Shown here: one piece after another, positions 19,339 through 61,514 of the stretch
Layout: every line of letters begins with the position of its first letter
How positions within the stretch are numbered: the stretch's first letter is position 1
Origin: a virus
Strand: one strand, 5' to 3'
Length of the DNA: 64,000 nucleotides
IMG/VR virus record: IMGVR_UViG_3300032116_000032
Span: 62,001 to 126,000 of that record
Notes under the pieces: generated by a model
Database searches by the model: none
Told to the model about the DNA's origin: nothing
The model's input: the letters and a program-made list of their open reading frames with translations, nothing else
Program-made: the position numbers and the translations under genes

Positions 19339-22290
19339 ATGGCATTATTAACGGATCAAATACAAGCTACTGGAGTTTCTCTAACAGACTTAATTCACAT
19401 AGTAATAACTGGTGATACTTCTCAAAATCCTGCGGGATCATCTTTTAAAGCATCAATTTCTCAACTTGTTAGTTTAATTAGTGGTTCTACAGGAACAAAC
19501 GGTACATCAGGAACTAATGGAAGTAGTGGTACAAATGGAACTAACGGTACATCAGGAACTAATGGGTCTAGCGGTACTAATGGGTCTAGCGGTACTAATG
19601 GAACAAACGGTACTTCAGGAACAAATGGATCTAGCGGTACTAATGGAACAAACGGTACTTCAGGAACAAATGGATCTAGCGGTACTAATGGAACAAACGG
19701 TACTTCAGGAACAAATGGATCTAGCGGTACTAATGGAACAAACGGTACTTCAGGAACAAATGGATCTAGCGGTACAAATGGAACAAATGGATCTAGCGGT
19801 ACAAATGGAACTAATGGTACAAGCGGTCTAAGTGGTATTGGGTTATTTTTACCATTATCAGGGGGCACGGTTACGGGTAATACAATATTTAATGCCGGTT
19901 TAAGTGCGATAACAATATCGGCAACAACCTATCAAAACTTACCAAGTGATGTGATAATTATTGACTCAACACAGATTCAATCAGGATTTACAGGTGGAGT
20001 CTTGTTCCAAAGTTCAGCAAGTACGGTAAGTCAAACTACTGGATTTACTTGGGATAATGTAAATAAAAGGTTGGGAATTGGGACTAACACCCCTCTCTAT
20101 GACTTAGACGTTTATGGGTCTATCTATCAAAAAACCGGAGAATTATTAATTACATCCACAAGTGGTGTTAATAAAGAAGGTCCATTTATAGCATCAGACG
20201 GCGGAACTAACAGAACCATTCAATTAGGAATTTCAGACAATTCAACTGTACCTGTCGGCATTGATATGTTTGTAACTAACAATACATTCCCGCCAAGTTA
20301 CATGAACTTTAGAGTAAACGATGCTGATCTAGTTAGGATGTCTGGTAGTTCTGTTATAATTAGCGGTCTTACATATACAAGTGGTATAACCTCTACATCT
20401 AAAATAACATTTCCACAGCTGACAATTAATAGTTCATACACCATGACTGATAATGATTTTATGATTGATGTTACAGGAGGAACATTCAACGTACAATTAC
20501 TATCTGCCGTAGGAAGACAAGGAAGAATAGTTGTTATTAAAAATAATGGTGGAGGTGCAGTTACGGTAGTCCCTTATGGTAGTGAAACTATAGATCTAGC
20601 ACCATTTGTTATTTTAGGTGAAACAAACTCATTACAATTAGTAAGTAATGGTAGTTTTTGGGTTGCAATGTCTTATAATATCTCAACAGTAAACTCATCA
20701 ACAGGTGTTTTTGAATTTAGTGGTTTGACAAAGGCAAGTAATACCACATTTAATGTTGCCCCTGTTAAAGGTTGGATAGTTGATGATACAACTAATCCGT
20801 TGAGTCCCCAACTTTTATTTGTTTATTTTACTGGAGGAACGTATACTGATAGTTTTGTAACAACGGCTTTTGAGACATTTGTTTATTTAACAAGTGGTGC
20901 AACAATTGGACAACAATCAACACCACTAACTGAACAACAAAGAAGACAAAATATATTTTTAGGTAAAATAGGACACCCTGAAAAAGTTTCAATTAACTTA
21001 GTGTTTTCACAACCTGATTTTGTTTTATCACCATTATCTCAACTTCGTGATATGTTTGTACCTATTAATTTAATTAATGGGGGTGTATATCCATCAGCCA
21101 ACGGAGCAAACTTAAAATTCAACACAAGTGCCGGGTTTATATATGGATTAGGTATTAATTTTGCATCGAATACATTGAACCCAAATGCATTATCGATATC
21201 AGGAACAAGCCCTTGTACATTCCAATATAGAACACAAACAGGAGGAACGGTTACAAATGTTACAGATATTGACCCACTTAACTATGATGTTGGGGGTGTT
21301 ATAACTCCAATCACAGGTACTAAAGCCACAAACCAAAGAATTTACCTATTGCAAAATGGACAATTTAGAATTCAATATGGTCAAACCGAATATAACACTT
21401 TAGTACAGGCGATAGAAGCATTACAAACAGAAACATTCACAATATTCCCCAATTTTGTAAATAATGCCGTTCTTATTGGTATATTAACGGTGTTAAGTAC
21501 CGCAACGGATTTGACCGATACAACTAAAGCAAGATTCTTTTTTGCGTCTAAGTTTGGTGAAACTGTAGGTGCTACGGGGGGTGTGTCAACAACAAACCTA
21601 CAACAAGCTTATAATAACTCAGTACAACCTGAAATAACAACCAACTCAACTTTAGGTGCGTTCTCAATCAAAAATGGTACGGGTAATCCTGATGCCACCA
21701 CAAATTTATTTGAAGGAATTAATTCTGCAAATACTTTAACATCGGTAATCACTGCAAGAGGTACTATCACAGGGTCTAGTATTACTACAAATGGTGCTGT
21801 GACGGGAGCTACCGTAATTGGTGATGTTATATCGGGTAACACAGTGTCGGCCTCAACACTTAACCTTGCAGGATCACAAATAAATACTGCTTGGACATCT
21901 TATGTACCTGTTTTGACCGCAAGTGTAACTAATCCTGTAATTGGTAATGGAACCGTAGAAGGTTGGTATAAAATAGTTGGTAAAACATGTTTTGTGAGAG
22001 GAAATATTGTAATGGGATCAACAACAACATTTGGTGCAGGAGAATGGTATGTGTCAGTACCATTTACCGCGGCTCATGCTGATGCAATATTATTAAATGC
22101 TGACATATTAGATAATGGGACCGCTTGGTATAATGCATTTATAGCGGGTGCAAGAGCAGGATTTAATACCAAAGCGGCAATACAATATCAAAATACAGGA
22201 GGAACTACAGATAGTGTTTCACCAAGTACCCCATTTACTTGGACAACTGGTGATAGATTTTTATGGAATGGAAGTTATGAAATCGCATAG
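19339..22290 (+). CDS. Tail fibre protein with collagen-like repeats
   Basis: A 983-residue fibre. A 45-residue head domain (MALLTDQIQATGVSLTDLIH) leads into about 115 residues of Gly-X-Y triplets (residues 50-164), mostly GTN, GTS and GSS, which should form a trimeric collagen-type rod. Beyond it are fibre-shaft patterns (FTWDNVNKRLGIGTNTPLYD, LDVYGSI), a beta-rich middle, and a C-terminal domain ending TTGDRFLWNGSYEIA that is the likely receptor- or glycan-contacting tip. The triplets are encoded by near-identical DNA repeats, so copy number may vary between strains. It follows its own TATTTAT motif. Confidence 0.85.
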   Translation: MALLTDQIQATGVSLTDLIHIVITGDTSQNPAGSSFKASISQLVSLISGSTGTNGTSGTNGSSGTNGTNGTSGTNGSSGTNGSSGTNGTNGTSGTNGSSGTNGTNGTSGTNGSSGTNGTNGTSGTNGSSGTNGTNGTSGTNGSSGTNGTNGSSGTNGTNGTSGLSGIGLFLPLSGGTVTGNTIFNAGLSAITISATTYQNLPSDVIIIDSTQIQSGFTGGVLFQSSASTVSQTTGFTWDNVNKRLGIGTNTPLYDLDVYGSIYQKTGELLITSTSGVNKEGPFIASDGGTNRTIQLGISDNSTVPVGIDMFVTNNTFPPSYMNFRVNDADLVRMSGSSVIISGLTYTSGITSTSKITFPQLTINSSYTMTDNDFMIDVTGGTFNVQLLSAVGRQGRIVVIKNNGGGAVTVVPYGSETIDLAPFVILGETNSLQLVSNGSFWVAMSYNISTVNSSTGVFEFSGLTKASNTTFNVAPVKGWIVDDTTNPLSPQLLFVYFTGGTYTDSFVTTAFETFVYLTSGATIGQQSTPLTEQQRRQNIFLGKIGHPEKVSINLVFSQPDFVLSPLSQLRDMFVPINLINGGVYPSANGANLKFNTSAGFIYGLGINFASNTLNPNALSISGTSPCTFQYRTQTGGTVTNVTDIDPLNYDVGGVITPITGTKATNQRIYLLQNGQFRIQYGQTEYNTLVQAIEALQTETFTIFPNFVNNAVLIGILTVLSTATDLTDTTKARFFFASKFGETVGATGGVSTTNLQQAYNNSVQPEITTNSTLGAFSIKNGTGNPDATTNLFEGINSANTLTSVITARGTITGSSITTNGAVTGATVIGDVISGNTVSASTLNLAGSQINTAWTSYVPVLTASVTNPVIGNGTVEGWYKIVGKTCFVRGNIVMGSTTTFGAGEWYVSVPFTAAHADAILLNADILDNGTAWYNAFIAGARAGFNTKAAIQYQNTGGTTDSVSPSTPFTWTTGDRFLWNGSYEIA
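19591..19770 (+). repeat. Four exact tandem copies of a 45-bp coding repeat
   Basis: Copies start at 19591, 19636, 19681 and 19726. Each encodes GTNGTNGTSGTNGSS in the collagen-like fibre. Shorter degenerate pieces of the same unit flank the array (about 19485-19590 and 19771-19830). The exact DNA identity suggests recent expansion by slippage or unequal recombination. Confidence 0.95.
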
Positions 22291-31125: not shown

Positions 31126-31988
31126 TGGATTTAAAAAAAATTGCACAAGAAATTAGGGACATCATTTCTGAAAGACAAAAAGAGTTCCAACTTACCTTTG
31201 AAGAGGAAAGTCACAAATATACAATGTTGGATAAAGATGGAAATTTAAAATCAGATTTTCCATCGGTATCTAAAGTTATGAAAATATTTTATGACGACTT
31301 TCCAACGGAACAAGCGGCGTATAACAAAGCCGGTGGTGATCCTGATGAGGCCGAAAGATTAATGGAAGAGTGGGCGGAAGCCGGTAGAAAATCAACAAAC
31401 TTGGGATCTCGTTGTCACTTCTTTTTGGAAGAACATACACTAAAAGAATTTGGAGTTGAGAAAATTGTACGACAACCAATATTTGATTGTGATGCAGAAC
31501 AGATCATTAAGAGTGATACTATGATTATGGCTGGTAAGCATTACATAGAACTTCTTAAAGAAAGAGGATGTATATTAATTGATACAGAAATGGTTTTAGG
31601 TCATCCTGACTTAGGTTATACAGGACAACCCGATAAGGTGTGGTTAGTCATTGGAACAAACGGGAATCTTGGTATTTTAATAACGGATTGGAAATCTAAC
31701 AAACCAAAGAATTTTGCGGTTACCCGTTATACTAAAAAAATGAAACAACCATTTGAAGACTTACCTGATAATGCTTTAGGTCACTACAATACCCAGTTAC
31801 CTTTTTATGGTAAGTTACTTTTGAAAATGTTAGAAGGAACTAAATATGAAAACATACAACTATTAGGTTGTATTATCGTTTTGATTACTGAAGAAAGAGA
31901 GTACCATGAGTACCGAGTATCCAAAAAAACGATGAATACTATTTTAGAAATGGACATGAAACAATATTTGACTAAAATTAATAAATAA
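31125..31988 (+). CDS. PD-(D/E)XK family nuclease
   Basis: A 287-residue protein with a RecB/exonuclease-type PD-(D/E)XK core: an upstream Glu in IDTEMVLGHPDLGY, GQPDKVWL (D170) and ITDWKSNKP (D188, K190), followed by a Gln-containing helix (HYNTQLPFYGKLLLKM), the QxxxY motif of this superfamily. The N-terminal part has the PSVSKVM segment often seen in phage and Cas4-like nucleases of this class. Coupled to the primase by TAATG, so a role in replication or recombination of phage DNA is likely. Confidence 0.8.
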   Translation: MDLKKIAQEIRDIISERQKEFQLTFEEESHKYTMLDKDGNLKSDFPSVSKVMKIFYDDFPTEQAAYNKAGGDPDEAERLMEEWAEAGRKSTNLGSRCHFFLEEHTLKEFGVEKIVRQPIFDCDAEQIIKSDTMIMAGKHYIELLKERGCILIDTEMVLGHPDLGYTGQPDKVWLVIGTNGNLGILITDWKSNKPKNFAVTRYTKKMKQPFEDLPDNALGHYNTQLPFYGKLLLKMLEGTKYENIQLLGCIIVLITEEREYHEYRVSKKTMNTILEMDMKQYLTKINK

Positions 31989-37811: not shown

Positions 37812-38612
37812 ATGAAAGACAAAAACACAGGGGCACCTATCAATCAGGATGAGATTTATCACTACCTTAAAGATATTAGAAAAATTAAGGTAATGACTGC
37901 AGAACGCGAACGTCATTTAGCCACACGAATGAAGTCGAATGATCTTACCTTGATTGAAAAACAACAAATTGAGGAAGAACTTTTAACAGGAAACCTACGT
38001 TTTGTAATAACAGTTGCAAAACAATATCAAAATCAAGGTTTAGATTTGTCAGATCTTATTGCAGAAGGTAATTTTGGTTTGATGAAAGCAATCAAGAACT
38101 TTGATTGGAATAAAGACTTACGTTTTATATCTTATGCTGTTTGGTGGGTTAAACAATCCATAATCCAATCTTTGAACGATAATTCGAGAACGATCCGTCT
38201 ACCGGTAAACGTTGTCCAAGACTTACAAAAGGCTAAAAAGGAATTAGAGCAAACAGGAAAAAAACTTGACGACAAGTTCCAAACTTTACCATCTATCATA
38301 GATTTGGATATGAATATCAATGAAGACGGTGATACTTTGATTGATATGATTGAGAATAAAGACGCTGTAGCACCTGACGCTAGTTTTCACACAAAAGACA
38401 TATTAAAAGATAAGTTAATGAGACTTTTAGATGTTTTGGATGAAAGAGAAAAAGTCATTGTAGGTGATTACTTTGGTTTAACAGGAACACCAAGAACATT
38501 GGAAGATATTGGATCTGACTTTGGTTTAACAAAAGAACGTGTTCGTCAAATTAAAGAAAAAGCTCTTCGTAGACTTAGAAATGATTCTTCCGAATTATTT
38601 GATTATTTATAG
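37812..38612 (+). CDS. Sigma-70 family RNA polymerase sigma factor, Bacteroidota RpoD-like
   Basis: A 266-residue primary-type sigma factor without region 1.1. Region 2 is complete (GNLRFVITVAKQYQNQGLDL, SDLIAEGNFGLMKAIKNFDW, RFISYAVWWVKQSIIQSL), the NSRTIRLPVNVV segment opens region 3, and region 4.2 has the helix-turn-helix LEDIGSDFGLTKERVRQIKE. This is the layout of Bacteroidota RpoD, suggesting capture from a host. It probably redirects host polymerase, and the TATTTAT elements before late genes are plausible targets. A structured RNA and a strong terminator follow. Confidence 0.92.
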   Translation: MKDKNTGAPINQDEIYHYLKDIRKIKVMTAERERHLATRMKSNDLTLIEKQQIEEELLTGNLRFVITVAKQYQNQGLDLSDLIAEGNFGLMKAIKNFDWNKDLRFISYAVWWVKQSIIQSLNDNSRTIRLPVNVVQDLQKAKKELEQTGKKLDDKFQTLPSIIDLDMNINEDGDTLIDMIENKDAVAPDASFHTKDILKDKLMRLLDVLDEREKVIVGDYFGLTGTPRTLEDIGSDFGLTKERVRQIKEKALRRLRNDSSELFDYL

Positions 38613-40037: not shown

Positions 40038-40631
40038 ATGGAAATAATTGAAAATTTAATCCAAACAAACTTTAAAAAAGAAGACAAAAAAAATCAAATA
40101 GTTCTTTGTCACACATCAAGAACACTTTTTGATTATATGGTCTCAATAAAATTTAGATTTGGTGGAAAACCTATCAGATTACCTCATTACATTATTAGTA
40201 GAGACGGTAGGATTTTGCAGTTATTAGATGAAGAATTAAATGGTTATTTTACTAATAATGATCGAATAAATTCCAAATCAATTGTGGTTTGTTTGGAAAA
40301 CTTAGGATGGTTAGAAAAAGAACCTTTAAAACACCATCACATTAATTGGATTGGTAATATTTATAAAGAGAAAGTTTTTGATCGTAAGTGGAGAGATTAT
40401 TTTTTTTGGCACCCATACACCGACATACAAGTTGAAAAAACTGCAGAGTTGTGTTTAGAGTTGACAAAAAAACATAAAATTGAAAAAAACTTTATTGGAC
40501 ACAACACAAAGGTAAAAGGTGTTGAGTCTTTTATGGGTATCATTACGAGATCAAACTTTGATGAATTTGCAACGGATCTAAGTCCGGCATTTGATTTTGA
40601 AAAATTTAATAAATTGTTGAATGATGAGTAA
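40038..40631 (+). CDS. N-acetylmuramoyl-L-alanine amidase (Amidase_2-like endolysin)
   Basis: Cuts the amide bond between MurNAc and the stem peptide to lyse the cell. The 197-residue single-domain protein matches the Amidase_2 plan: VLCHTS with the first zinc His (H25), LPHYIISRDGRILQLLDEE, a SIVVCLENLGW strand, FIGHNTKVKG (H155), and ATDLSPAFDFEKF (D180) in place of the usual K-x-DPG-x-xFDW end. No signal peptide, so release needs a holin; none was clearly recognised. The next two membrane-type genes look like spanins. Confidence 0.8.
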   Translation: MEIIENLIQTNFKKEDKKNQIVLCHTSRTLFDYMVSIKFRFGGKPIRLPHYIISRDGRILQLLDEELNGYFTNNDRINSKSIVVCLENLGWLEKEPLKHHHINWIGNIYKEKVFDRKWRDYFFWHPYTDIQVEKTAELCLELTKKHKIEKNFIGHNTKVKGVESFMGIITRSNFDEFATDLSPAFDFEKFNKLLNDE

Positions 40632-41214
40632 CTACGATGAAATAAAAAATTTGATTAGAGCATCAAGAAATGCCTTTAATACAAATTTAAATGAAGATGC
40701 CCAACGTATTAAAAAACAGTATGGGTTATTAACAGAACAACCTGTTGAGAAGGAAGAAGAAGTTGTTAAAGATGAAAACCAATCTTTCCAAAAAGAAAAA
40801 AAGGATTCTGATGAAATCGGAACTCAAAGAGATAAACAAAAGGCTTTTAGAATATTGGCCAATATTATCGTTCTTCATGGAAAAACTAAGGCCGATCTAC
40901 AATTGACTACAGATGAAAAAAACGCATTTACCTCAAGTGTTGATGAGTTTAGAACTGATGTTGCCGAATTAGTTGAATTTGGCAGACTTAATGTTTTCCC
41001 AAGTAACGTTGAATGGTCGGGTAAAATTTTAGAAAATGATATTGAATTTTTCTATACAATAAACGAACCAAATGGTATCTACATTAATGGTCAAATGATA
41101 AAAATAGATCAAGATTATTTGGAAACAATTAATAAGTTACAAGCTTATTATGAGAAATTTAAAAATAAATGGAGTAAAATTGTCGCAACAAGACAAGAAG
41201 ATGTTGAAAAATGA
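40621..41214 (+). CDS. Hypothetical protein with an LTE processing-like site
   Basis: A 197-residue protein that overlaps the amidase end. The first 40 residues form an amphipathic helical segment ending KKQYGLLTEQ, in which LTE (37-39) fits the L/I-x-E rule for T4-type prohead protease cleavage. After an acidic linker, residues 65-190 look like a compact domain (KAFRILANIIVLHGKTKADL, then EWSGKILENDIEFFYTIN). No family recognised. It interrupts the lysis genes, so it may instead be a lysis accessory. Confidence 0.55.
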   Translation: MMSNYDEIKNLIRASRNAFNTNLNEDAQRIKKQYGLLTEQPVEKEEEVVKDENQSFQKEKKDSDEIGTQRDKQKAFRILANIIVLHGKTKADLQLTTDEKNAFTSSVDEFRTDVAELVEFGRLNVFPSNVEWSGKILENDIEFFYTINEPNGIYINGQMIKIDQDYLETINKLQAYYEKFKNKWSKIVATRQEDVEK

Positions 41215-43021: not shown

Positions 43022-44581
43022 ATGAACACAAGACAATATATTAACTCAAGATTTGAAAAAATTATATCAGAAAACATTAATGAGAAAGCAGATGCTATCT
43101 TACAAAGATTGAATTATGATGAGGAGGCACCATTCAATCCTGCTGGTAAATCATTTGACTATGTACAAGAAGGTATGAAAGAAACTTGTGAACAATGTGG
43201 GTCTGAAATGAATGAAGGTGAATGTTCAGAATGTGGTTACCAAAATGAAGAGATTATGGAACTTGGCGGCATGGATGACGGACACCCGAAATATGGAAAG
43301 ATGAATTTTTCAAAACTTTCAAGAAAAGAAATTGAAAAAATTATGAAAGATATGGACAATATGGAAGATGACGATGAAGAAGAATTCGTAGATTATGATG
43401 ATATAGATTATGGTGATATGGATGATGATGAAGAAGAATATTATCCTGAACTGAGAATACCTCATGACATGCCATCATACAAAACTAAATATAGACATAG
43501 TGATGATGAAGACGATGAATGGGAAGAAGTAGATTTAGACACAGAAACTGATTGGGATCAATTAGAAGAAGATGAATGTACTGAGTGTGGTGATATGTAT
43601 GAAATTGAACTTGATGAAAAATTATATGGAAACCAAACAAAACTTGACAAAAACAAAAACGGTAGAATAGATAGAGAGGATTTCAAAATGTTAAGAAAAC
43701 AACAAGATGAGGAAGAAACTCTTTACGAAGTTGAATTTGAAAAAGATGAGTTTAAAGAAGAAAGTAAACCTGACTTTTTAGATTTAGACAAAGATGGTAA
43801 TAAAAAAGAATCTATGAAGTCTGCAGCTAAAAGTAAAAAAATGAAAGGAAAGGTTACTGAGTCTTTAATTTTTACTGAAAATGAGTTGATTTCACTTATT
43901 GAAAAAACAGTAAATGAAGAAAAAAAATTCAAAATGAGCGAGCCTAAAGGTTATCAAGAGTACGAAAAAGCACACAGAAAAGATAAGAAAGAAAATGAAG
44001 ATTATTTAAAGATGGTTGCTAAAAAAATGACTGATTACTTGAAAGGTATGTCTGACAAAGAGTCTAAATACGAAATGAAAGAAACACAAAAATTCCCAAC
44101 TGAAAATGGTGGTAAAAGAAAAAAATATACTCCATCTGAAGCTGTTGATGAATACATTGATGCATTCTCTTATCCTGGACAAACTAATTTAGTTTATGAT
44201 GAGATCAAACCTAATGATGAAAGAATTGAAAAATATCTGAAAGGTGACAGTACTACAGGAAATGCACAAGTTGATAAAGACGGAAAGGCTTTAGGTAATG
44301 TTGTACCAAGTGAAGTTGGTGAGAAATTCTTCAAAAACTATAAAGATAATCTTTATGGTCAAGAACAACAACAGGCTTCTTATAAGAGACAAACCCAACC
44401 TGTTGATCAGGCTGGTGAGGTAACTGAAAGAGGTTCTTTAAAATCTAAGAAAGGTAAAAAAACCGCACAAAGTGTTTTGAATAAAGTTGAGGAATCTGTT
44501 AATCAAAAAGAAAAACAAAAATTAACAGAAGAATTCCAAAGAATTCAAAATCTAATGGGCTATAACCAAAAGACTCAATAA
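43022..44581 (+). CDS. Acidic putative internal virion protein with zinc-ribbon and EF-hand-like loops
   Basis: A 519-residue protein. The N-terminus MNTRQYINSRFEKIISENIN carries ISE (15-17) and INE (19-21), possible prohead-protease sites. A zinc ribbon follows (C56, C59, C68, C71). Residues 116-162 are a very acidic tract duplicated almost exactly in the gene at 54154. A calcium-loop-like DKNKNGRIDREDF (209-221) and a second DLDKDGNKKE come next. SLIFTENELISLIEKTVNEE near residue 280 looks like an internal copy of the tag type, and the end has EEFQRIQNLMGYN. It follows its own TATTTAT motif. Proposed late, internal-head or scaffold-like protein; no family match. Confidence 0.6.
   Translation: MNTRQYINSRFEKIISENINEKADAILQRLNYDEEAPFNPAGKSFDYVQEGMKETCEQCGSEMNEGECSECGYQNEEIMELGGMDDGHPKYGKMNFSKLSRKEIEKIMKDMDNMEDDDEEEFVDYDDIDYGDMDDDEEEYYPELRIPHDMPSYKTKYRHSDDEDDEWEEVDLDTETDWDQLEEDECTECGDMYEIELDEKLYGNQTKLDKNKNGRIDREDFKMLRKQQDEEETLYEVEFEKDEFKEESKPDFLDLDKDGNKKESMKSAAKSKKMKGKVTESLIFTENELISLIEKTVNEEKKFKMSEPKGYQEYEKAHRKDKKENEDYLKMVAKKMTDYLKGMSDKESKYEMKETQKFPTENGGKRKKYTPSEAVDEYIDAFSYPGQTNLVYDEIKPNDERIEKYLKGDSTTGNAQVDKDGKALGNVVPSEVGEKFFKNYKDNLYGQEQQQASYKRQTQPVDQAGEVTERGSLKSKKGKKTAQSVLNKVEESVNQKEKQKLTEEFQRIQNLMGYNQKTQ
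43369..43509 (+). repeat. Duplicated acidic coding segment, copy A
   Basis: These 141 bases recur at 54243-54395, 10.9 kb away, with no difference except a 12-bp insertion in the second copy. Both copies are in the same reading frame and encode EEEFVDYDDIDYGDMDDD...YPELRIPHDMPSYKTKYRH. Confidence 0.95.
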
Positions 44582-49567: not shown

Positions 49568-50950
49568 ATGTCACTTAGGTTCACCAATCTATTAAGAGAT
49601 CTTATTGTTGAAAGTTCAAGATTTCAAGTATTATTCGATAAGTTCGTAAAACCAAAAGAAAGAGGTCAAAGAGGTATTATGCCTTTTGAAACTTTATTTG
49701 CACTTATCGCCGCTGACCCAACTACAAAGGTCCCTGACGGTATGGATATCGATAATGTTAAACCTGAACAGATGGAGAAGGTTAAAATTGGGAAATACGC
49801 TCAATGGTTACTAAAAAACTTTGTCACTCCTAAATTACCTGCTGATCACCCTTTAATGGTTTCAGATCCACAATCAGGTCAATATAAAGCGGCTTTAAAG
49901 GCATTCCAAGATCTTTTTATGGAAGACTTATATAAGGTTACAACAAACCTCCAAAAGTTTGAAAGATTTAAAAATAGATTACCTCAAGAGTATAGAGATA
50001 TTAACAAACTAACTCCTGAGACTTTATTTGATCAAGTTAAAGATTTCAGTTTAGAAAAAACCAAAGCGACTGCCGCTGAGAAAAAAGAAGCATCAACAAC
50101 ATATGCTCACCCTGGTGCTGACATCGTTTATAGAGGTCAAGATTGGACAGTTGCTAAAATATCAGACAAAGGTCCATTAGGTAAAGAAGCCGCATGTTTC
50201 TATGGTGGATCTCATAATGAAGGTAGAAGAGGAGAAACTACTTGGTGTACATCTTCACCTGGACTTTCTTGGTTTGATCGTTATATTGGTAAAGGACCAT
50301 TGTATGTTGTAATTCCAAACAAACCAACATCATTTAAATCTTACGGTAAAGAAGTTGGAGATGTTTCAGGTTTACCGGCAAACAGATACCAATTCCACTT
50401 CCCTGATAATCAGTATATGGATGCGGATGACAGACCAATCAATTTGATTGAATTCTTAAACACAAATGAAGAAGGACTAAAACAATTCTTCAAACCTGAG
50501 TTCATGAAGTCATTAGCCGGAGATAAAGGTGAAAAAGTTGTGATTGATTATCCAGGTGATTCGGCATCAAAATTCATTGCACTTTATGGTTTTGACGAAT
50601 TCTTTGCCACTCTTCCTCAGTCATTGAAAAGACTTACATTCAAAAACACATCAAGAGACAAAATTTCATTGAATATTCCAAACGACATTGGAAGGTTCAA
50701 ACAGTTGAACGCAATCAACTTTGTTGGATGTGTTGCAACTATACCTGAAGCAATTTGTCAATTACAAAATTTACAATATTTATCTTTAGTTAATAACCCA
50801 GACCTTCAAAAATTACCTGAATGTGTTGGGGATATGCAAAACCTTATGGTACTAAACCTTGGAGGATCCGATCCTAAGAAAGTTCTACCTGAATCTGTAT
50901 TCAGAAGAGCTGAAACAGACGAAGACTTCAACTTATTTACACACTCTTAA
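49568..50950 (+). CDS. Leucine-rich-repeat protein with IVE-tagged N-terminus
   Basis: A 460-residue protein. The N-terminus MSLRFTNLLRDLIVESSRF has IVE at 13-15, a possible prohead-protease site. A helical region follows, then a compact domain with WTVAKISDKGPLGKEAACF and ETTWCTSSPGLSWFDRYI plus GKGPLYVVI, a pattern I have the impression recurs in environmental phages but cannot name. Residues about 345-450 are leucine-rich repeats (LPQSLKRLTFKN; LQNLQYLSLVNNPDLQKLPE; MQNLMVLNLGG). LRRs bind proteins, so this could be an injected effector or head component. Confidence 0.65.
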   Translation: MSLRFTNLLRDLIVESSRFQVLFDKFVKPKERGQRGIMPFETLFALIAADPTTKVPDGMDIDNVKPEQMEKVKIGKYAQWLLKNFVTPKLPADHPLMVSDPQSGQYKAALKAFQDLFMEDLYKVTTNLQKFERFKNRLPQEYRDINKLTPETLFDQVKDFSLEKTKATAAEKKEASTTYAHPGADIVYRGQDWTVAKISDKGPLGKEAACFYGGSHNEGRRGETTWCTSSPGLSWFDRYIGKGPLYVVIPNKPTSFKSYGKEVGDVSGLPANRYQFHFPDNQYMDADDRPINLIEFLNTNEEGLKQFFKPEFMKSLAGDKGEKVVIDYPGDSASKFIALYGFDEFFATLPQSLKRLTFKNTSRDKISLNIPNDIGRFKQLNAINFVGCVATIPEAICQLQNLQYLSLVNNPDLQKLPECVGDMQNLMVLNLGGSDPKKVLPESVFRRAETDEDFNLFTHS

Positions 50951-50952
50951 AA

Positions 50953-51642
50953 ATGAATAGAAGATTAATAATTAATGAAGAAGAAAAAAGAAGAATTTTA
51001 AATCTTCATGAAAGTAGAAGATCTAAAGAATTAGGTTTTTTATTTGAAGACGATAATGCAAACAATGAAGTACTGCTTCAAGGTACGGATAAGGATTATG
51101 ATTATAAAAAAGTGGGAGATAAATATTATTTCAAGTTAAAGGATAACCCTACAAGTGTCGCGGCTAAAGGATACAAAACACAAGGAAAATTTGTAGATTG
51201 GACAGAAGCGACTAATCAAAAAGCTATAGATAAAATTTCACAACTACCTACATTATCAACAGTAGCACAATTTCAGGGACCTGGTGAAGTTGACGGAAGT
51301 GATGAGACATTTGACGCACCACAAACCGCATCTACAACGGCGCAAACACCTACAGTGGCGTCAACAACATCTACAACCGCAGCAACACCCACAAACGCAA
51401 CTACAACTACAAACGCAACAACACCAGCACCTACGTCAAAAAACCCTGATGTTTTAGCAGACTTAAAAACTGCATCACAAATCAGACAAGAATTTAGACA
51501 AGGTAATAGAGATAAAAACAAAGCGATGAGACAATACAATCAAATGGTTAATAAATATAACAAATTAAAAAGTAAAATGAGTCCACAAGATAATTCGGCT
51601 TATCTACAAGCAATTGGCCAATTGAAACAACAAATAGGATAA
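50953..51642 (+). CDS. Putative internal protein with INE/LHE-tagged N-terminus and Thr/Ala linker
   Basis: A 229-residue protein beginning MNRRLIINEEEKRRILNLHE, in which INE (7-9) and LHE (18-20) fit the L/I-x-E rule. A small domain (KDYDYKKVGDKYYFKLKDNP) is followed by a low-complexity Thr/Ala/Pro stretch (residues about 120-165) and a basic helical C-terminus (EFRQGNRDKNKAMRQYNQMV). It starts three bases after the previous stop, so it shares that gene's promoter. A terminator follows. Confidence 0.6.
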   Translation: MNRRLIINEEEKRRILNLHESRRSKELGFLFEDDNANNEVLLQGTDKDYDYKKVGDKYYFKLKDNPTSVAAKGYKTQGKFVDWTEATNQKAIDKISQLPTLSTVAQFQGPGEVDGSDETFDAPQTASTTAQTPTVASTTSTTAATPTNATTTTNATTPAPTSKNPDVLADLKTASQIRQEFRQGNRDKNKAMRQYNQMVNKYNKLKSKMSPQDNSAYLQAIGQLKQQIG

Positions 51643-51662: not shown

Positions 51663-51695
51663 AAAACCCCCCCTTCTTTTGATCGGGGGTTTTTT
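51663..51695 (+). terminator. Strong intrinsic terminator
   Basis: Stem AAAACCCCC (51663-51671) / GGGGGTTTT (51685-51693), 13-base loop, then more Ts. It separates the LRR operon from the MKIIITE-tag cluster. Confidence 0.9.
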
Positions 51696-51706
51696 ATTTA
51701 ACAAAG

Positions 51707-51713
51707 TATTTAT
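51707..51713 (+). promoter_or_regulatory. Putative late promoter motif TATTTAT
   Basis: Placed between the terminator and the first MKIIITE-tag gene, ending 5 nt before its ATG. Confidence 0.6.
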
Positions 51714-51718
51714 CTTAT

Positions 51719-52093
51719 ATGAAAATCATCATAACAGAAGAACAGTATAATCTAATCAACGAAACCTATAGAAGAGATCGTTTTGATGCTGAGTACGCTG
51801 ATGAATATCCAAAGTATAAGAAGTTGTTTTTAAAGACAATATCTAAAGATGTCAAAGGTTGGGGTGAATGGCCAGGATCAATTTATCTGATGACTGAAAA
51901 CGGAGACCCTTTATTTGTATATAGAATACCATCAAAAACCGTATATTATGATTATTCAATAGATAAAGAGATGGAAGAATATATTCCTTATCACATTGTT
52001 TCGAGACACTTGAAAAACGCAGTTTACGATTACTTCAAAGGACTTTTTCCTGATGTTGAAATAAAAGAGGTAAGTGGGGCTAATATTGTATAG
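51719..52093 (+). CDS. MKIIITE-tagged protein 1
   Basis: A 124-residue protein beginning MKIIITEEQYNLINETYRRD. The tag (MKIII-T/S-x-x-Q-Y/K-x-x-L/I-x-E) is shared by four consecutive genes whose remaining sequences differ; here ITE (5-7) and INE (13-15) are possible protease sites. The body has SIYLMTENGDPLFVYRIP, and a helical end with VSRHLKNAVYDYFKGLFPDV. No family recognised. First of four genes behind one TATTTAT motif. Confidence 0.65.
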   Translation: MKIIITEEQYNLINETYRRDRFDAEYADEYPKYKKLFLKTISKDVKGWGEWPGSIYLMTENGDPLFVYRIPSKTVYYDYSIDKEMEEYIPYHIVSRHLKNAVYDYFKGLFPDVEIKEVSGANIV

Positions 52094-52095
52094 TT

Positions 52096-52653
52096 ATGAA
52101 AATAATAATATCTAATAATCAATATAGTCTTTTGAAGGAAGTGCATGTTGCTATTAAAAACATTGAGGGTCTTAAAAAGTATTGGAGAAACCAACAAAAA
52201 AAAGGTCAACAAATTAGATTTAATAAAGAAGATTTAGATTTTTGGGGTATTACAACTAGACAGGAAAAATATTATGCTCAAACAGCATTTCAAGAATTAG
52301 TTGGAGATGAGGTTTTTACTGAAAAAGTTATTAAAAAGTTAATCGGAAAAACATTTTCAACGAAAGACTTTGATGATAGAATCACTGGTGGATATGATTT
52401 CGAGTGGGTGATTGATAATATGGAATATAGAGATTATGATTTTTATTTATATGGAAAAACATTACCGGGAGGAACTGTTACTCTTATGGATGGTAGACAC
52501 ATATCTTTAAGTGAAGGAATAAATCATGAAGATTTAGGTTGGGAAATACAAGAAGAAATTAAAGATGTTGTCCAAGACTGTATGGATGAAATAATTTTAC
52601 CTGTCACAGGATATGAAGTGATAGTACCATATTTAATTATATCTGAAGAATGA
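52096..52653 (+). CDS. MKIIITE-tagged protein 2
   Basis: A 185-residue protein beginning MKIIISNNQYSLLKEVHVAI; LKE at 13-15 is the possible cleavage site. The body includes FWGITTRQEKYYAQTAFQEL and an acidic segment with VTLMDGRHISLSEGINHEDL. Starts two bases after the previous stop, and its own stop overlaps the next ATG (ATGA). Function unknown. Confidence 0.65.
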   Translation: MKIIISNNQYSLLKEVHVAIKNIEGLKKYWRNQQKKGQQIRFNKEDLDFWGITTRQEKYYAQTAFQELVGDEVFTEKVIKKLIGKTFSTKDFDDRITGGYDFEWVIDNMEYRDYDFYLYGKTLPGGTVTLMDGRHISLSEGINHEDLGWEIQEEIKDVVQDCMDEIILPVTGYEVIVPYLIISEE

Positions 52654-52976
52654 AAATAATAATTACAGAATCACAGAAAGAAAAACTAATGAATGATTTT
52701 ATGAAATCACTCGTAGATGATACCTTAGATGAAAACAAACCTTCTTATGTTGATTATTATATTGTTATTTGGGATAAAACTGCTGTTTGGAACATTGATA
52801 ACGAGCCGTTTATTGAATATGATAAATCTGATGGTAGATTGTGGATATCAAAAAAATATTTAAACAACTTAGAATCTTGGTTCCCAATCAAAAAAGAAAA
52901 AGTGTTAGATATGATTAAAAACTCTTTTGAAAATAAATTTAATGTTGATGTAAAATATATCAAAGCGGAGTCATGA
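52650..52976 (+). CDS. MKIIITE-tagged protein 3
   Basis: A 108-residue protein beginning MKIIITESQKEKLMNDFMKS; ITE (5-7) is present but the second site is lost. The body (YYIVIWDKTAVWNIDNEPFI, then WFPIKKEKVLDMIKNSF) has the same size and strand-strand-helix feel as tagged protein 1, so they may be distant relatives. ATGA overlaps on both sides. Confidence 0.65.
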   Translation: MKIIITESQKEKLMNDFMKSLVDDTLDENKPSYVDYYIVIWDKTAVWNIDNEPFIEYDKSDGRLWISKKYLNNLESWFPIKKEKVLDMIKNSFENKFNVDVKYIKAES

Positions 52977-53560
52977 AAATAATAATTACAGAAAAACAAT
53001 ATAATAAGTTAACTGAAGATAAACTTCAGAAACTTTGTTATACAGTATGGAACCAACAAAAAAAGAGAGGTGAAGAACCTTATATTGATGATATAATATA
53101 CGACATTACAGATATTAGAAAAAACACAAATGAAGACTTTCAAATCATTAGACCCATTTGGTATAGATACAACGGTGGATTTAATAACTTATTTGAAAAA
53201 CTTAAAAATGAAATTGACGAAAAAATATTTGACCTTACAAGTGATTGGGGTAATCTTGATACAAGAGTAGAAGTTATTGAAGTAAGTCAGTTTGGTAGAT
53301 TAGGTGAAGATTTTGGAGTAGATATATTTGTAAATGTAGATCCAAATGGAACCATGGATTTCCAAATGTATGAAGAAGGAACCGATAACGAAATTCAAGT
53401 TAACGATACGATTGAGGCGGCTTATTTTGAAGCTCAATCCAATTATGAAGGAAGTGATCTTCTTGGTTATTTAAGAGGGGAAGTTTATGACCTTTTTTAT
53501 AAAAAGTTAGAAAAATACGGAATTCCAATTGACGTGGATGTTGATCTAAAAGAATTTTAA
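52973..53560 (+). CDS. MKIIITE-tagged protein 4
   Basis: A 195-residue protein beginning MKIIITEKQYNKLTEDKLQK; ITE (5-7) and LTE (13-15) fit the L/I-x-E rule. A basic helical part (CYTVWNQQKKRGEEPYIDDI) is followed by an acidic alpha/beta domain (TRVEVIEVSQFGRLGEDFGV, VDIFVNVDPNGTMDFQMYEE). Last gene of the tag cluster. Function unknown. Confidence 0.65.
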   Translation: MKIIITEKQYNKLTEDKLQKLCYTVWNQQKKRGEEPYIDDIIYDITDIRKNTNEDFQIIRPIWYRYNGGFNNLFEKLKNEIDEKIFDLTSDWGNLDTRVEVIEVSQFGRLGEDFGVDIFVNVDPNGTMDFQMYEEGTDNEIQVNDTIEAAYFEAQSNYEGSDLLGYLRGEVYDLFYKKLEKYGIPIDVDVDLKEF

Positions 53561-54153: not shown

Positions 54154-54612
54154 ATGAAAAAACAAATACTTGAAGAGCTTAATGATATTAAGTATCTTTT
54201 TAATTACAATAGAGGTAAAATTATTTCAGAACAGGAACAATTTGACGATGAAGAAGAATTCGTAGATTATGATGATATAGATTATGGTGATATGGATGAT
54301 GATATGGATGATGATGAAGAAGAATATTATCCTGAACTGAGAATACCTCATGACATGCCATCATACAAAACTAAATATAGACATAGTGATGATGATATGG
54401 AATTGGACGAAGAAATGGATCTTCCTGTAATGTTACCAGGTACAAAAGAAAAAGAAAGAACTAAGGTAACACCTGGAACTAAACCGAGAACAAAACCTAA
54501 TACTCCATATAGCCCAAAACCAGGACCAAAACCGGATCCTAAGGCTAGAAATAGAAAAGATGAGATGCCTGATTGGTTAACCTTTGATGAACTTGGAATT
54601 GATTTTGAATAA
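54154..54612 (+). CDS. Acidic tagged protein sharing a duplicated segment with the 43022 product
   Basis: A 152-residue protein. The N-terminus MKKQILEELNDIKYLFNYNR continues GKIISEQEQ, giving ISE at 24-26. Residues about 30-80 are the acidic tract copied from (or into) the gene at 43022, with an extra DMDD unit. The rest is Pro/Lys-rich (PGTKPRTKPNTPYSPKPGPK) and ends DEMPDWLTFDELGIDFE. So tag and body seem to be assembled from modules. One base separates it from the next gene. Function unknown; possibly a head-internal protein. Confidence 0.6.
   Translation: MKKQILEELNDIKYLFNYNRGKIISEQEQFDDEEEFVDYDDIDYGDMDDDMDDDEEEYYPELRIPHDMPSYKTKYRHSDDDMELDEEMDLPVMLPGTKEKERTKVTPGTKPRTKPNTPYSPKPGPKPDPKARNRKDEMPDWLTFDELGIDFE
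54243..54395 (+). repeat. Duplicated acidic coding segment, copy B
   Basis: Second copy of the 43369-43509 segment, identical except for a 12-bp insertion that itself repeats neighbouring bases (GATGATATGGAT). Reading frame is kept. Confidence 0.95.
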
Positions 54613-54613
54613 T

Positions 54614-55849
54614 ATGAAAAATTTAAGAAAAAAATTATACACTGAAGGTTTACCAAAATCTGAATTTGTTAGACTATTGGAAGCCCCAATTGACTATGAA
54701 GGTCCTGAAAGAATGGCTGGAGATGTTGAGGGAAAAATCACCGGTAAAAAAACCCCCTACCATAATTTTCCTGCTATCCCTAATATGGATAAAGACTTTG
54801 TTGAATTAATATCTTCCAAGAGATTCAAAGACTCAGTTGACAAAGTTAGAATGGCTATGGGTGATACAAGAATTATACAAGGTCAAAATGCTTTAATGCA
54901 GTTAATGGGAACTGTTGGTCAAGCGATGCAAAGACTTGTTATGATTCAGTCACAAAACAAAAAACAACTTGAAGATTTGGCTATTGAACTTGTAAAAAAA
55001 GAAATGGGTATTCCTGAAGGGGCAATGCAGTTCAAGGCTGAACTAATGACACAACCTATGGGTGCCGCAGAAGGGATGAAAGATGAAGCCGAAATGCCAA
55101 GTGAAGAAGAAATTGAAGAGTTTATGGGTGACGTTGAAAACTTCAACTTAGAAAGAGCTAAAAGAAGATTTATTAACTCATTAATTCAAGGAGCGGCTTT
55201 CAAAGGAGGTCACATGTATAATCTTGTAAGAAATGAAATCAATGATATCAACCCACAATTAATGAACCTTTATGCTGTTACCCAATCTTTGATGGAACAT
55301 GCTTATTGGATCTTTCCTGATATGGAAGGAATGGCAGGTGGTGGCGGTGGTCAAATGGGTCAGTCAGAATATGATGATGAGACAGATCCACCAACAGTAA
55401 AAGCTAGAGCTGTTACATTCCCACTTCTTGTACACGAGTTAGTTAAAGGTGTTTATGAGGTATTTGGAACTCATGGTTTACCTGATGACCCAAAACAAAG
55501 AGAAATGGTATTAAATGCTGAAGATTCACTTCCTGCTGAGATTTGGGACTCTCGTTTAGGACCAATTTTTTGGGAGAAGTTCGTTTCAACTTACCCTATG
55601 GAATTGTTCGATGATGATATGAAACATATCCAACATTATTTATTCATGCGTTTTTCAGCTTTAAACGCAGAAGAATTTATGAGTTTAGCTAAAAAGATCC
55701 TAAGTGGGGATCCAAAAGGACAACAAATAATTCAAAGAATGGTTGATGATATCGTTAAAGATTTAAAAGACAGAGAATATAAAGATGCCATGGGTGATGA
55801 TGATGACGAAGACTACGGCGATGTTGATCTAAGTGATTTGGGACTTTAA
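54614..55849 (+). CDS. Large putative virion-associated protein
   Basis: About 411 residues from ATG 54614; the frame is open from 54584 but that start lies inside the previous gene. The N-terminus MKNLRKKLYTEGLPKSEFVR is followed by LLE (21-23), a possible protease site. The body is helical with Met-rich parts (NALMQLMGTVGQAMQRLVMI), a Gly-rich turn and a C-terminal part with LPAEIWDSRLGPIFWEKFVS, ending in a run of Asp. No family recognised. Its stop is in the loop of a terminator. Confidence 0.6.
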   Translation: MKNLRKKLYTEGLPKSEFVRLLEAPIDYEGPERMAGDVEGKITGKKTPYHNFPAIPNMDKDFVELISSKRFKDSVDKVRMAMGDTRIIQGQNALMQLMGTVGQAMQRLVMIQSQNKKQLEDLAIELVKKEMGIPEGAMQFKAELMTQPMGAAEGMKDEAEMPSEEEIEEFMGDVENFNLERAKRRFINSLIQGAAFKGGHMYNLVRNEINDINPQLMNLYAVTQSLMEHAYWIFPDMEGMAGGGGGQMGQSEYDDETDPPTVKARAVTFPLLVHELVKGVYEVFGTHGLPDDPKQREMVLNAEDSLPAEIWDSRLGPIFWEKFVSTYPMELFDDDMKHIQHYLFMRFSALNAEEFMSLAKKILSGDPKGQQIIQRMVDDIVKDLKDREYKDAMGDDDDEDYGDVDLSDLGL

Positions 55850-60308: not shown

Positions 60309-61514
60309 ATGAGAGACTTCATTAAAAATTTCTTATTAGAACAAGATGAGAATCTTGTTACACTAACTCCTGATCAATATATCGAAACATTAGAAGATGT
60401 TGGTGGAATTGCGGCGAGAGTTTCAAATCTAAAACCTTATCGTGGTAAAGGTATTGTTATTAACGGTGATTTAGATCTTAGAAAATTTAAAACTGTTGGA
60501 CCACTTACAGGAATTGTGAGAGTAATGGGTAGGTTAGATATATCCAATACGAATGTTCCAAATCTTGATGGTGTTACCGTAGATAGATATGTTAGTAATT
60601 GGGGATCAACAATGCATACAATTAAATTAAAACAAGAAAGAAATAAAAAACTTTCAGAATTGGCCGATTATAGAGAAAATGATGAGTGGAATACAGAAAA
60701 CAAAGACGATGATTCTGAAAGAACTGAAGCTTTATATGAATTTTTGGTTGAAGAAGGTATACCTACTTTATATGAAGACGACAATGGTGAAGAAGTAGAA
60801 GAAGACAAATATTTTATTTATCCTAATAGCACTGGAACTTACGGTATTGGAAAACAATACGAATGGTTAGGTAGTGATACTTTACAACCTGATACATATG
60901 ATGTTTATACTCAAGATGAGTTAGATATTGCCGCTAGAAGATATGTTGAAAATGCTATTGATGACATGGGTTATGAGGCATTTACAAGTTGGGTTTGGGA
61001 TCAAGCACTTGATAGAGGACAGTGGGAAAGTTGGTTAGAAGATTTTTATGAAGATATAATTAGAGATGATCCTGAAAACTATGATATAGGACTTGAATTA
61101 TCTACAAATCAACAACATCAAGTTAATCAATTAAAAAAAACTATAGAAAATCTAAATAATAAATTAAAAAGTGAGGAATTGTCTGACGAAGAATACGAAA
61201 ACATCGAAAGAAAAATTGAAGGTTTAGAAGAGACGATAGAAGAAATTATAGAAGATCCACAAGGTGGTTATGATGAAAGTTCCATACAGAATGAAATCAA
61301 TGATAGAGTTAATGAATATGTTGATGATATTGATGATTTTATTAAACACTACGGATATGAAAAAAGTTTTATAATGGATTTTGTTGATTTAGATGAGGTT
61401 ACGGATATTGTCGTAAATAGTGATGGATATGGTAATCTATTAAACTCTTATGATGGAGAAATGTTTGAAACACAGGTAAACGGTGACTGGTATTTTGTAA
61501 TGAGGGCTAGTTAG
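60309..61514 (+). CDS. Putative internal virion protein with LLE-tagged N-terminus
   Basis: About 401 residues from ATG 60309. The N-terminus MRDFIKNFLLEQDENLVTLT has LLE at 9-11, the same length and form as T4 capsid-targeting peptides. A repeat-like domain follows (VINGDLDLRKFKTVGPLTGI, VRVMGRLDISNTNVPNLDGV), then a charged part and a long coiled coil (VNQLKKTIENLNNKLKSEEL). The C-terminus is acidic and Tyr-rich (YGNLLNSYDGEMFETQVNGD). No family recognised by name. Confidence 0.6.
   Translation: MRDFIKNFLLEQDENLVTLTPDQYIETLEDVGGIAARVSNLKPYRGKGIVINGDLDLRKFKTVGPLTGIVRVMGRLDISNTNVPNLDGVTVDRYVSNWGSTMHTIKLKQERNKKLSELADYRENDEWNTENKDDDSERTEALYEFLVEEGIPTLYEDDNGEEVEEDKYFIYPNSTGTYGIGKQYEWLGSDTLQPDTYDVYTQDELDIAARRYVENAIDDMGYEAFTSWVWDQALDRGQWESWLEDFYEDIIRDDPENYDIGLELSTNQQHQVNQLKKTIENLNNKLKSEELSDEEYENIERKIEGLEETIEEIIEDPQGGYDESSIQNEINDRVNEYVDDIDDFIKHYGYEKSFIMDFVDLDEVTDIVVNSDGYGNLLNSYDGEMFETQVNGDWYFVMRAS

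Follow-up and report, generated by a model that had tools for sequence, protein, structure and literature searches.

Exchangeable N-terminal tags ending in [LIV]xE on unrelated proteins of large T4-related phages: probable capsid-targeting propeptides

Introduction

In a stretch of viral DNA of 64,000 nucleotides (the window; bases 62001–126000 of a linear virus record of 136,112 bases), four consecutive genes encode proteins that begin alike and then diverge. Are these genes ordinary paralogues, of which the N-terminus is simply the best-kept part, or is the N-terminus a separate element placed on unrelated proteins and, if so, what would it do? The first-pass annotation of the window had favoured an address label on variable bodies, pointing to a common destination.

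The window contig, at 136 kb, represents part of the genome of a T4-related phage, and close relatives of it are present in IMG/VR. Two larger relatives, G001 (272,576 bases) and G003 (304,365 bases), were read whole, and the window contig is collinear, in reversed orientation, with approximately 18–138 kb of G001. The phages are large, come from aquatic samples and probably have hosts among the Bacteroidota. Among 50,697 phage records, no match was found for the window region, for proteins 1 and 4, or for one of the tags described below (LTESDL, as a 22-amino-acid query), and searches of PHROGs and Pfam were uninformative for proteins 1–4.

Results

Four genes with one N-terminus and different bodies

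The features of the locus are as follows (here and below, the arrow marks the junction between tag and body).

51665–51699, + strand: terminator-like hairpin and T run, CCCCCCTTCTTTTGATCGGGGGTTTTTT, read from the sequence directly
51707–51713, + strand: TATTTAT element, 5 nt upstream of the ATG of protein 1
51719–52093, + strand: protein 1, 124 amino acids; tag MKIIITEEQYNLINE↓ and a 109-residue body with a predicted alpha/beta fold
52096–52653, + strand: protein 2, 185 amino acids; tag MKIIISNNQYSLLKE↓ and a body distantly related to that of protein 4
52650–52976, + strand: protein 3, 108 amino acids; tag MKIIITESQKEKLMN, without [LIVM]xE at residues 13–15
52973–53560, + strand: protein 4, 195 amino acids; tag MKIIITEKQYNKLTE↓ and a body modelled with pLDDT 89

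The open reading frames read from the window sequence confirm the four genes, all starting MKIII[TS]xxQ, and the presence of [IL]xE at residues 13–15 in three of them (proteins 1, 2 and 4; not protein 3). The hairpin lies between this four-gene operon and the preceding gene. The earlier description of one TATTTAT motif followed by stop/start overlaps stands for the single upstream element and for gene pairs 2–3 and 3–4, each with a 4-nt overlap (ATGA), and falls for genes 1 and 2, which are separated by a 2-nt gap.

The bodies had been described as showing little or only faint similarity, and comparison of the tagless families by hhalign agrees: a distant relationship links bodies 2 and 4 (P = 6e-5, probability 64%), bodies 1 and 3 are marginal (0.013, over 35 columns), and the remaining pairs gave nothing. 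The counter-proposal of the first-pass annotation, an ordinary family of full-length paralogues, was examined and is rejected for lack of full-length homology. The kinship of bodies 2 and 4 is what speaks for it; bodies 1, 2/4 and 3 are without significant relation, and the same N-termini are found on dozens of other bodies and swapped between orthologues, which leaves next to no chance that the N-terminus is merely the best-preserved part of such a family. In the predicted structures, confidence is approximately 50–58 over residues 1–30 of protein 1 and 51 over residues 1–10 of protein 4, and near 90 over both bodies. Neither body 1 nor body 4 had a significant Foldseek match in the PDB; body 4 is similar to one uncharacterised viral protein.

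The tags recur on many unrelated bodies

In a screen of 830 proteins from three genomes, pairs without homology between their bodies were scored over residues 2–24 and, as a control, over residues 41–63. At thresholds of 40, 45 and 50, the N-terminal segment yielded 619, 468 and 363 pairs, against 16, 7 and 2 for the control segment. The same screen recovered lipoprotein signal peptides as a separate cluster (n = 7, with a lipobox-like cysteine), which serves as a positive control, and when applied to 18 kb of T4 it ranked first the pair ipII/ipIII, whose products have the T4 targeting sequence in common (score 54; the next pair scored 28). Clustering by N-terminus gave one continuum of 81 proteins, comprising the KIIITExQ, LTESDL and ITEEEK types, and a second cluster of 21 with the MKELIRHILKE and MNLQExIRRILRE types; the tag classes are accordingly KIIITExQ, KKVIRLTESDLxRIVKRVINE, MKELIRHILKE, MNLQExIRRILRE and ITEEEKxRIL. 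With one small group added and one doubtful member dropped, these clusters make a set of 105 tagged proteins. The consensus of an alignment of all 105 is MKxxIxxTExxxxxxxxxxIxE, with almost no conservation beyond it.

The first-pass annotation had asked how many body types carry the tag: the bodies of the 105 proteins form about 86 clusters (69 with a single member), and an IMG/VR sample gave about 120 clusters, in part overlapping these. Tagged genes number 9 in the window contig, at least 43 in G001 and at least 53 in G003, and they cluster in a small number of variable arrays that lie apart from the head module. The KIIITExQ and MKELIR patterns occurred in none of 2214 ORFs from randomly picked phage loci, and a literature search found no paper printing these tag sequences, which is weak evidence of novelty. 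Nor did it turn up a virion proteome for any phage that bears them. A secretion or lipoprotein signal peptide was rejected by eye, as the tags are charged and have no hydrophobic stretch, lipobox or signal-peptidase site.

Besides the four genes above, the window holds the following tagged genes or candidates.

40624–41214, + strand: possible tagged gene, by eye, MSNYDEIKNLIRASRNAFNTNLNE↓; counterparts MNNYDEIKKLIEASRKVLNANINE↓ in G001 and MNNYEELKKLLESSRRLLGGDLLNE↓ in G003
43022–44581, + strand: possible tagged gene, by eye, MNTRQYINSRFEKIISE↓N; counterparts MNKEQYIVSRFKKILQE↓ in G001 and MKSNTYYDNLFRKVLTE↓ in G003
49568–50950, + strand: likely tagged gene, tag by eye, MSLRFTNLLRDLIVE↓S; leucine-rich-repeat body (match below cut-off)
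50953–51642, + strand: tagged gene of the ITEEEK type, MNRRLIINEEEKRRILNLHESRRSKELGFLFE↓, a member of the 81-protein cluster
54154–54612, + strand: tagged gene, MKKQILEELNDIKYLFNYNRGKIISE↓, in an N-terminal cluster of 4
54614–55849, + strand: tagged gene, MKNLRKKLYTEGLPKSEFVRLLE↓APIDYEGPERM
60309–61514, + strand: likely tagged gene, MRDFIKNFLLE↓QDENLV, with a different tag in its G003 homologue

A nearly identical acidic stretch, EEFVDYDDIDYGDMDDD..EEEYYPELRIPHDMPSYKTKYRHSDD, occurs in genes 43022–44581 and 54154–54612, which suggests that this segment was duplicated within genes that otherwise differ.

The majority of the 105 bodies have no recognised domain. Those recognised include phage lysozyme, ferritin-like (ferritin/Dps-like), OmpA and peptidoglycan-binding domains, and a DHH match below cut-off. 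In G001, the product of the gene at 256758–257675 (L077:8758–9675) has a KVLITEDQ tag in front of a phage lysozyme domain (E = 1e-18) and is thereby a candidate head-borne wall enzyme, as opposed to one produced for lysis.

Tags end in [LIV]xE, at a fixed position in the LTESDL class

The T4 prohead protease gp21 cuts after L/I-x-E (PMC9026906). Within residues 10–30, [LIVM]xE is present in 98 of the 105 tagged proteins and absent from the other 7; the controls gave 29–38% for internal windows, 41% for other proteins and 61 ± 4.5 in shuffles. Hydrophobic-to-glutamate spacings of 2 and 5 are, however, about as frequent as a spacing of 1 (127 and 120 against 129), and because any amphipathic helix also enriches these spacings, the motif count alone is weak evidence. 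A count of [LIV]xE by position over the whole proteome showed weak enrichment at N-termini, most genes being untagged.

The fixed position of the glutamate, together with the tag exchange described below, is stronger evidence than the count. Glu22 is present in all 20 LTESDL-class proteins of the three genomes, and conservation collapses at residue 23. In out-of-sample sets collected from IMG/VR by residues 1–12 only, 70 LTESDL-class proteins have [ILVM] at residue 20 in 69 cases and glutamate at residue 22 in 68, and conservation, which stood at 0.97, is 0.43 at residue 23 and at most 0.24 beyond it. The four window genes belong to the KIIITExQ class, which is less fixed than LTESDL, with the motif in 80% of 111 IMG/VR proteins against 25–35% internally. 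Within families, [LIVM]xE is kept in 25 of 26 members for protein 1, in all 14 with an intact start for protein 2, and in 22 of 22 for protein 4. The family of protein 3 has no motif at residues 13–15 in any of 7 orthologues, all of which have LDE at residues 26–28. In T4, a substitution at the cleavage site can prevent processing while leaving targeting intact (PMC9026906), so the missing motif does not by itself exclude protein 3 from being targeted. The residue after the junction (P1′) is mostly E, D, Q, N, S or T, whereas the capsid site described below has alanine.

Orthologues exchange tags at the junction

Orthologous bodies carry different tags, and their homology begins at the residue after [LIV]xE. 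In a DHH-like family, the starts read MKNLIRRIIKEETTKLLNE↓SGIRGI, MVMRKNLILE↓SGLRDI, MKKLLKE↓TGIRNI, MKKIISE↓GGIRNI and MKIIITESQYKMLINE↓SGIRDI; in a second family, MRSIIITENQFRFITE↓ALGVP, MRELIRQVLRE↓ALGVP and MKKNLIITENQLEIIVNNLLLNE↓AVGVP. The proteins of the window behave likewise. Protein 1, MKIIITEEQYNLINE↓TYRRDRFDAEYADEYPKYKKL, has an orthologue in locus L054 that reads MKNLIRKILKE↓ETFSRDWMDAEYADEYPKYKKL, its body starting with E, and another in L057 that starts MKNIIRKILLQE. A distant homologue of protein 4, at 71527–72093 of G003, starts MREIIRKVLLE↓. The product of window gene 54614–55849 (..FVRLLE↓) and its homologue in the G003 head module, MVDKDLERLIRKIIKE↓APIDYGDYPERM (..IRKIIKE↓), align by BLASTP (E = 9e-29) from the junction, at residues 23 and 16, respectively, to the end. 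The G003 homologue of window gene 60309–61514 starts MKKVIRLTESDLIKIIKTKLNE↓, and two related bodies within G003 (48611 and 72090) bear LTESDL and LITESQ tags. In all, 78 pairs with different tags were listed, 62 with an aligned junction; since the list includes artefacts of wrong start assignment, only swaps checked by eye are cited here.

We also note a tagged two-domain protein of G003 (68103–68780; L082:11103–11780): its C-terminal domain is a homologue of window protein 1, and a second [LIV]xE (NVISE↓LDRNW) precedes that domain.

A prohead protease and a capsid cut motif accompany the tags

An S77 (gp21-type) prohead protease is encoded by both G001 and G003 (E about 1e-23), as is gp23 (E about 1e-64). 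In the capsid protein of both, ..ENQASFLINE↓ASS.. aligns with the cut site of T4 gp23 (..SFLTE↓A) and has the same LINE as tag 1. The proteases themselves have LVE or LIE near their own start, and a comparable motif has been noted near the start of T4 gp21 (PMC9026906). Neither a prohead protease nor a capsid gene was found in the window's own contig, because the head module of G001 (approximately 180–195 kb) lies outside the collinear stretch.

Of 22 large tag-bearing contigs, 18 have an S77 gene; of 11 large contigs picked by an arbitrary 15-mer, 2 do (Fisher p = 7e-4, with the proviso that the lineages are related and the contigs thus not independent). One contig, G014 (that of L155; 268,739 bases), has two S77 genes, at 31291–31773 and 233494–233940, either as two proteases or as the product of a chimeric or mixed assembly.

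A cultured distant relative, Flavobacterium phage vB_FspM_immuto, likewise has a gp23/gp21/gp20 head module with small neighbouring genes of this kind: the products encoded around its terminase, portal, protease and capsid genes begin with short stretches that end in [LIV]xE↓A/S/N, among them MKKSQLRQIIKE↓A, MRLLELLRE↓A and MKKLIRIVE↓A. The immuto tags differ in sequence, and no KIIITExQ or LTESDL class was noticed in the region read.

Discussion

The tags are modular, end in [LIV]xE, are exchanged between orthologues, and co-occur with a gp21-type protease and with the same motif in the capsid protein. Because unrelated bodies are joined to these tags, the junction is kept when tags are swapped, and the protease and capsid motif are at hand, the common destination first suggested for the four genes, here taken as the capsid interior together with a shared protease, is the reading that the sequences best support. 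We therefore propose, with a probability of roughly 0.78, that the tags are exchangeable capsid-targeting propeptides resembling those of the T4 internal proteins, cut by the prohead protease, and that the cargo is delivered to the host. The steps of core binding, cleavage, packaging and ejection are those we infer. The tag, as a short amphipathic N-terminal helix, would bind the prohead core or scaffold and draw the attached protein into the prohead, where the gp21-type protease would cut after the terminal [LIV]xE and free the mature body; this would stay alongside the DNA inside the head and enter the host on infection. Somewhat better than even, in our judgement, is the broader proposal of modular delivery, in which a few interchangeable, protease-removed labels are recombined onto a large pool of proteins (40–60 or more per genome), so that virions carry a broad, fast-evolving injected set that can be read from sequence.

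T-even internal proteins are diverse and have only the targeting sequence in common (PMC3012670). T4 IPI, IPII, IPIII and Alt (targeting sequence MKTYQEFIAE↓) likewise combine a short tag starting MK and ending [LI]xE with unrelated bodies; the T4 internal proteins are also small and variable, and a gp21-type protease is encoded in the same phages. In sequence, the tags do not resemble the one of T4 (ungapped BLOSUM62 scores of 7–12), which leaves descent from it unproven. T4 has one tag on about four genes, whereas here several classes are found on at least 43–53 genes per genome, presumably as cargo, and tag swapping between orthologues is a feature of these phages that differs from T4. The giant phages SPN3US and phiKZ, in which a prohead protease removes N-terminal propeptides from head proteins, resemble them in having many head and ejected proteins, an E-terminated motif and that protease. 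In SPN3US the motif is AXE, most propeptides are 111–254 residues long and only eight substrates have N-terminal propeptides (PMC10052503); the tags here, of about 7–25 residues and ending [LIV]xE, are shorter and far more numerous. The bS21-encoding freshwater Bacteroidetes phages (PMC9723584), possibly of the same broad group as the window phage, resemble it in habitat, in the size of their genomes, in their host group and in the gp21/gp23 head region; the passages of that paper covered here make no mention of N-terminal tags. A handful of proteins are known to carry the T4 targeting sequence; if our proposal is true, this group packages approximately ten times more cargo types, and the N-terminal rule (a tag ending [LIV]xE↓) predicts head-loaded, host-delivered genes among many unknowns, including candidates for host takeover and counter-defence, and adds several new natural packing labels.

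The tagged proteins might instead go to the prohead core and be cut there, acting in assembly only, as a scaffold-like core or in the neck or tail lumen, with no delivery to the host. The T4 core proteins gp22, gp67 and gp68 are indeed cut by gp21 (PMC9026906), and some tagged bodies match tape-measure-like PHROGs, although these matches may reflect low-complexity helices only. Assembly parts would be conserved, whereas the bodies are extremely diverse, replaceable and found in variable arrays far from the head module, and enzyme-like domains (lysozyme, ferritin/Dps-like, DHH-like) are among them; we consider a purely structural role unlikely. Still more doubtful is an address elsewhere, such as the host membrane, a phage compartment or, as a degron, a phage-encoded Clp-type protease, with [LIV]xE as the end of an amphipathic helix. 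The enrichment of neighbouring spacings would suit it, as would an AAA+ Clp-like gene, assigned by eye, that lies close to the head genes in both G001 and G003. A helix end alone, however, predicts neither the sharp end of conservation after the glutamate nor the resumption of swapped orthologues directly there, and the capsid protein bears the same motif at the end of its propeptide.

A start conserved as a feature of DNA or mRNA (a strong initiation region, say, or a hot spot of recombination) and not as a peptide signal would fit the swapping of tags by recombination and the TATTTAT element close upstream of 56% of the tag genes (25% of others). Residues are kept, however, while synonymous sites diverge: pN/pS of the tags is 0.25–0.47 at pS of 0.51–0.68, and the window pair 1 and 4 has pS 0.92 and pN 0.05. 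This pattern indicates selection on amino acids; conservation at the mRNA level is largely excluded by the codon divergence, and the explanation as a whole is very improbable.

TATTTAT is possibly a late promoter that gives near-leaderless mRNAs for the tag genes. In G000, G001 and G003 it stands upstream of 231 of 824 genes (23 expected), including gp21 and gp22, and its median start is −14 ahead of tag genes and −21 ahead of the rest. A sigma-70-like factor, recognised by eye, is encoded at 37812–38612 of the window and is a possible reader of the element. Near the tail genes, window positions 19339–22290 encode a long protein with a collagen-like GTSGTNGSSGTNG repeat, also identified by eye.
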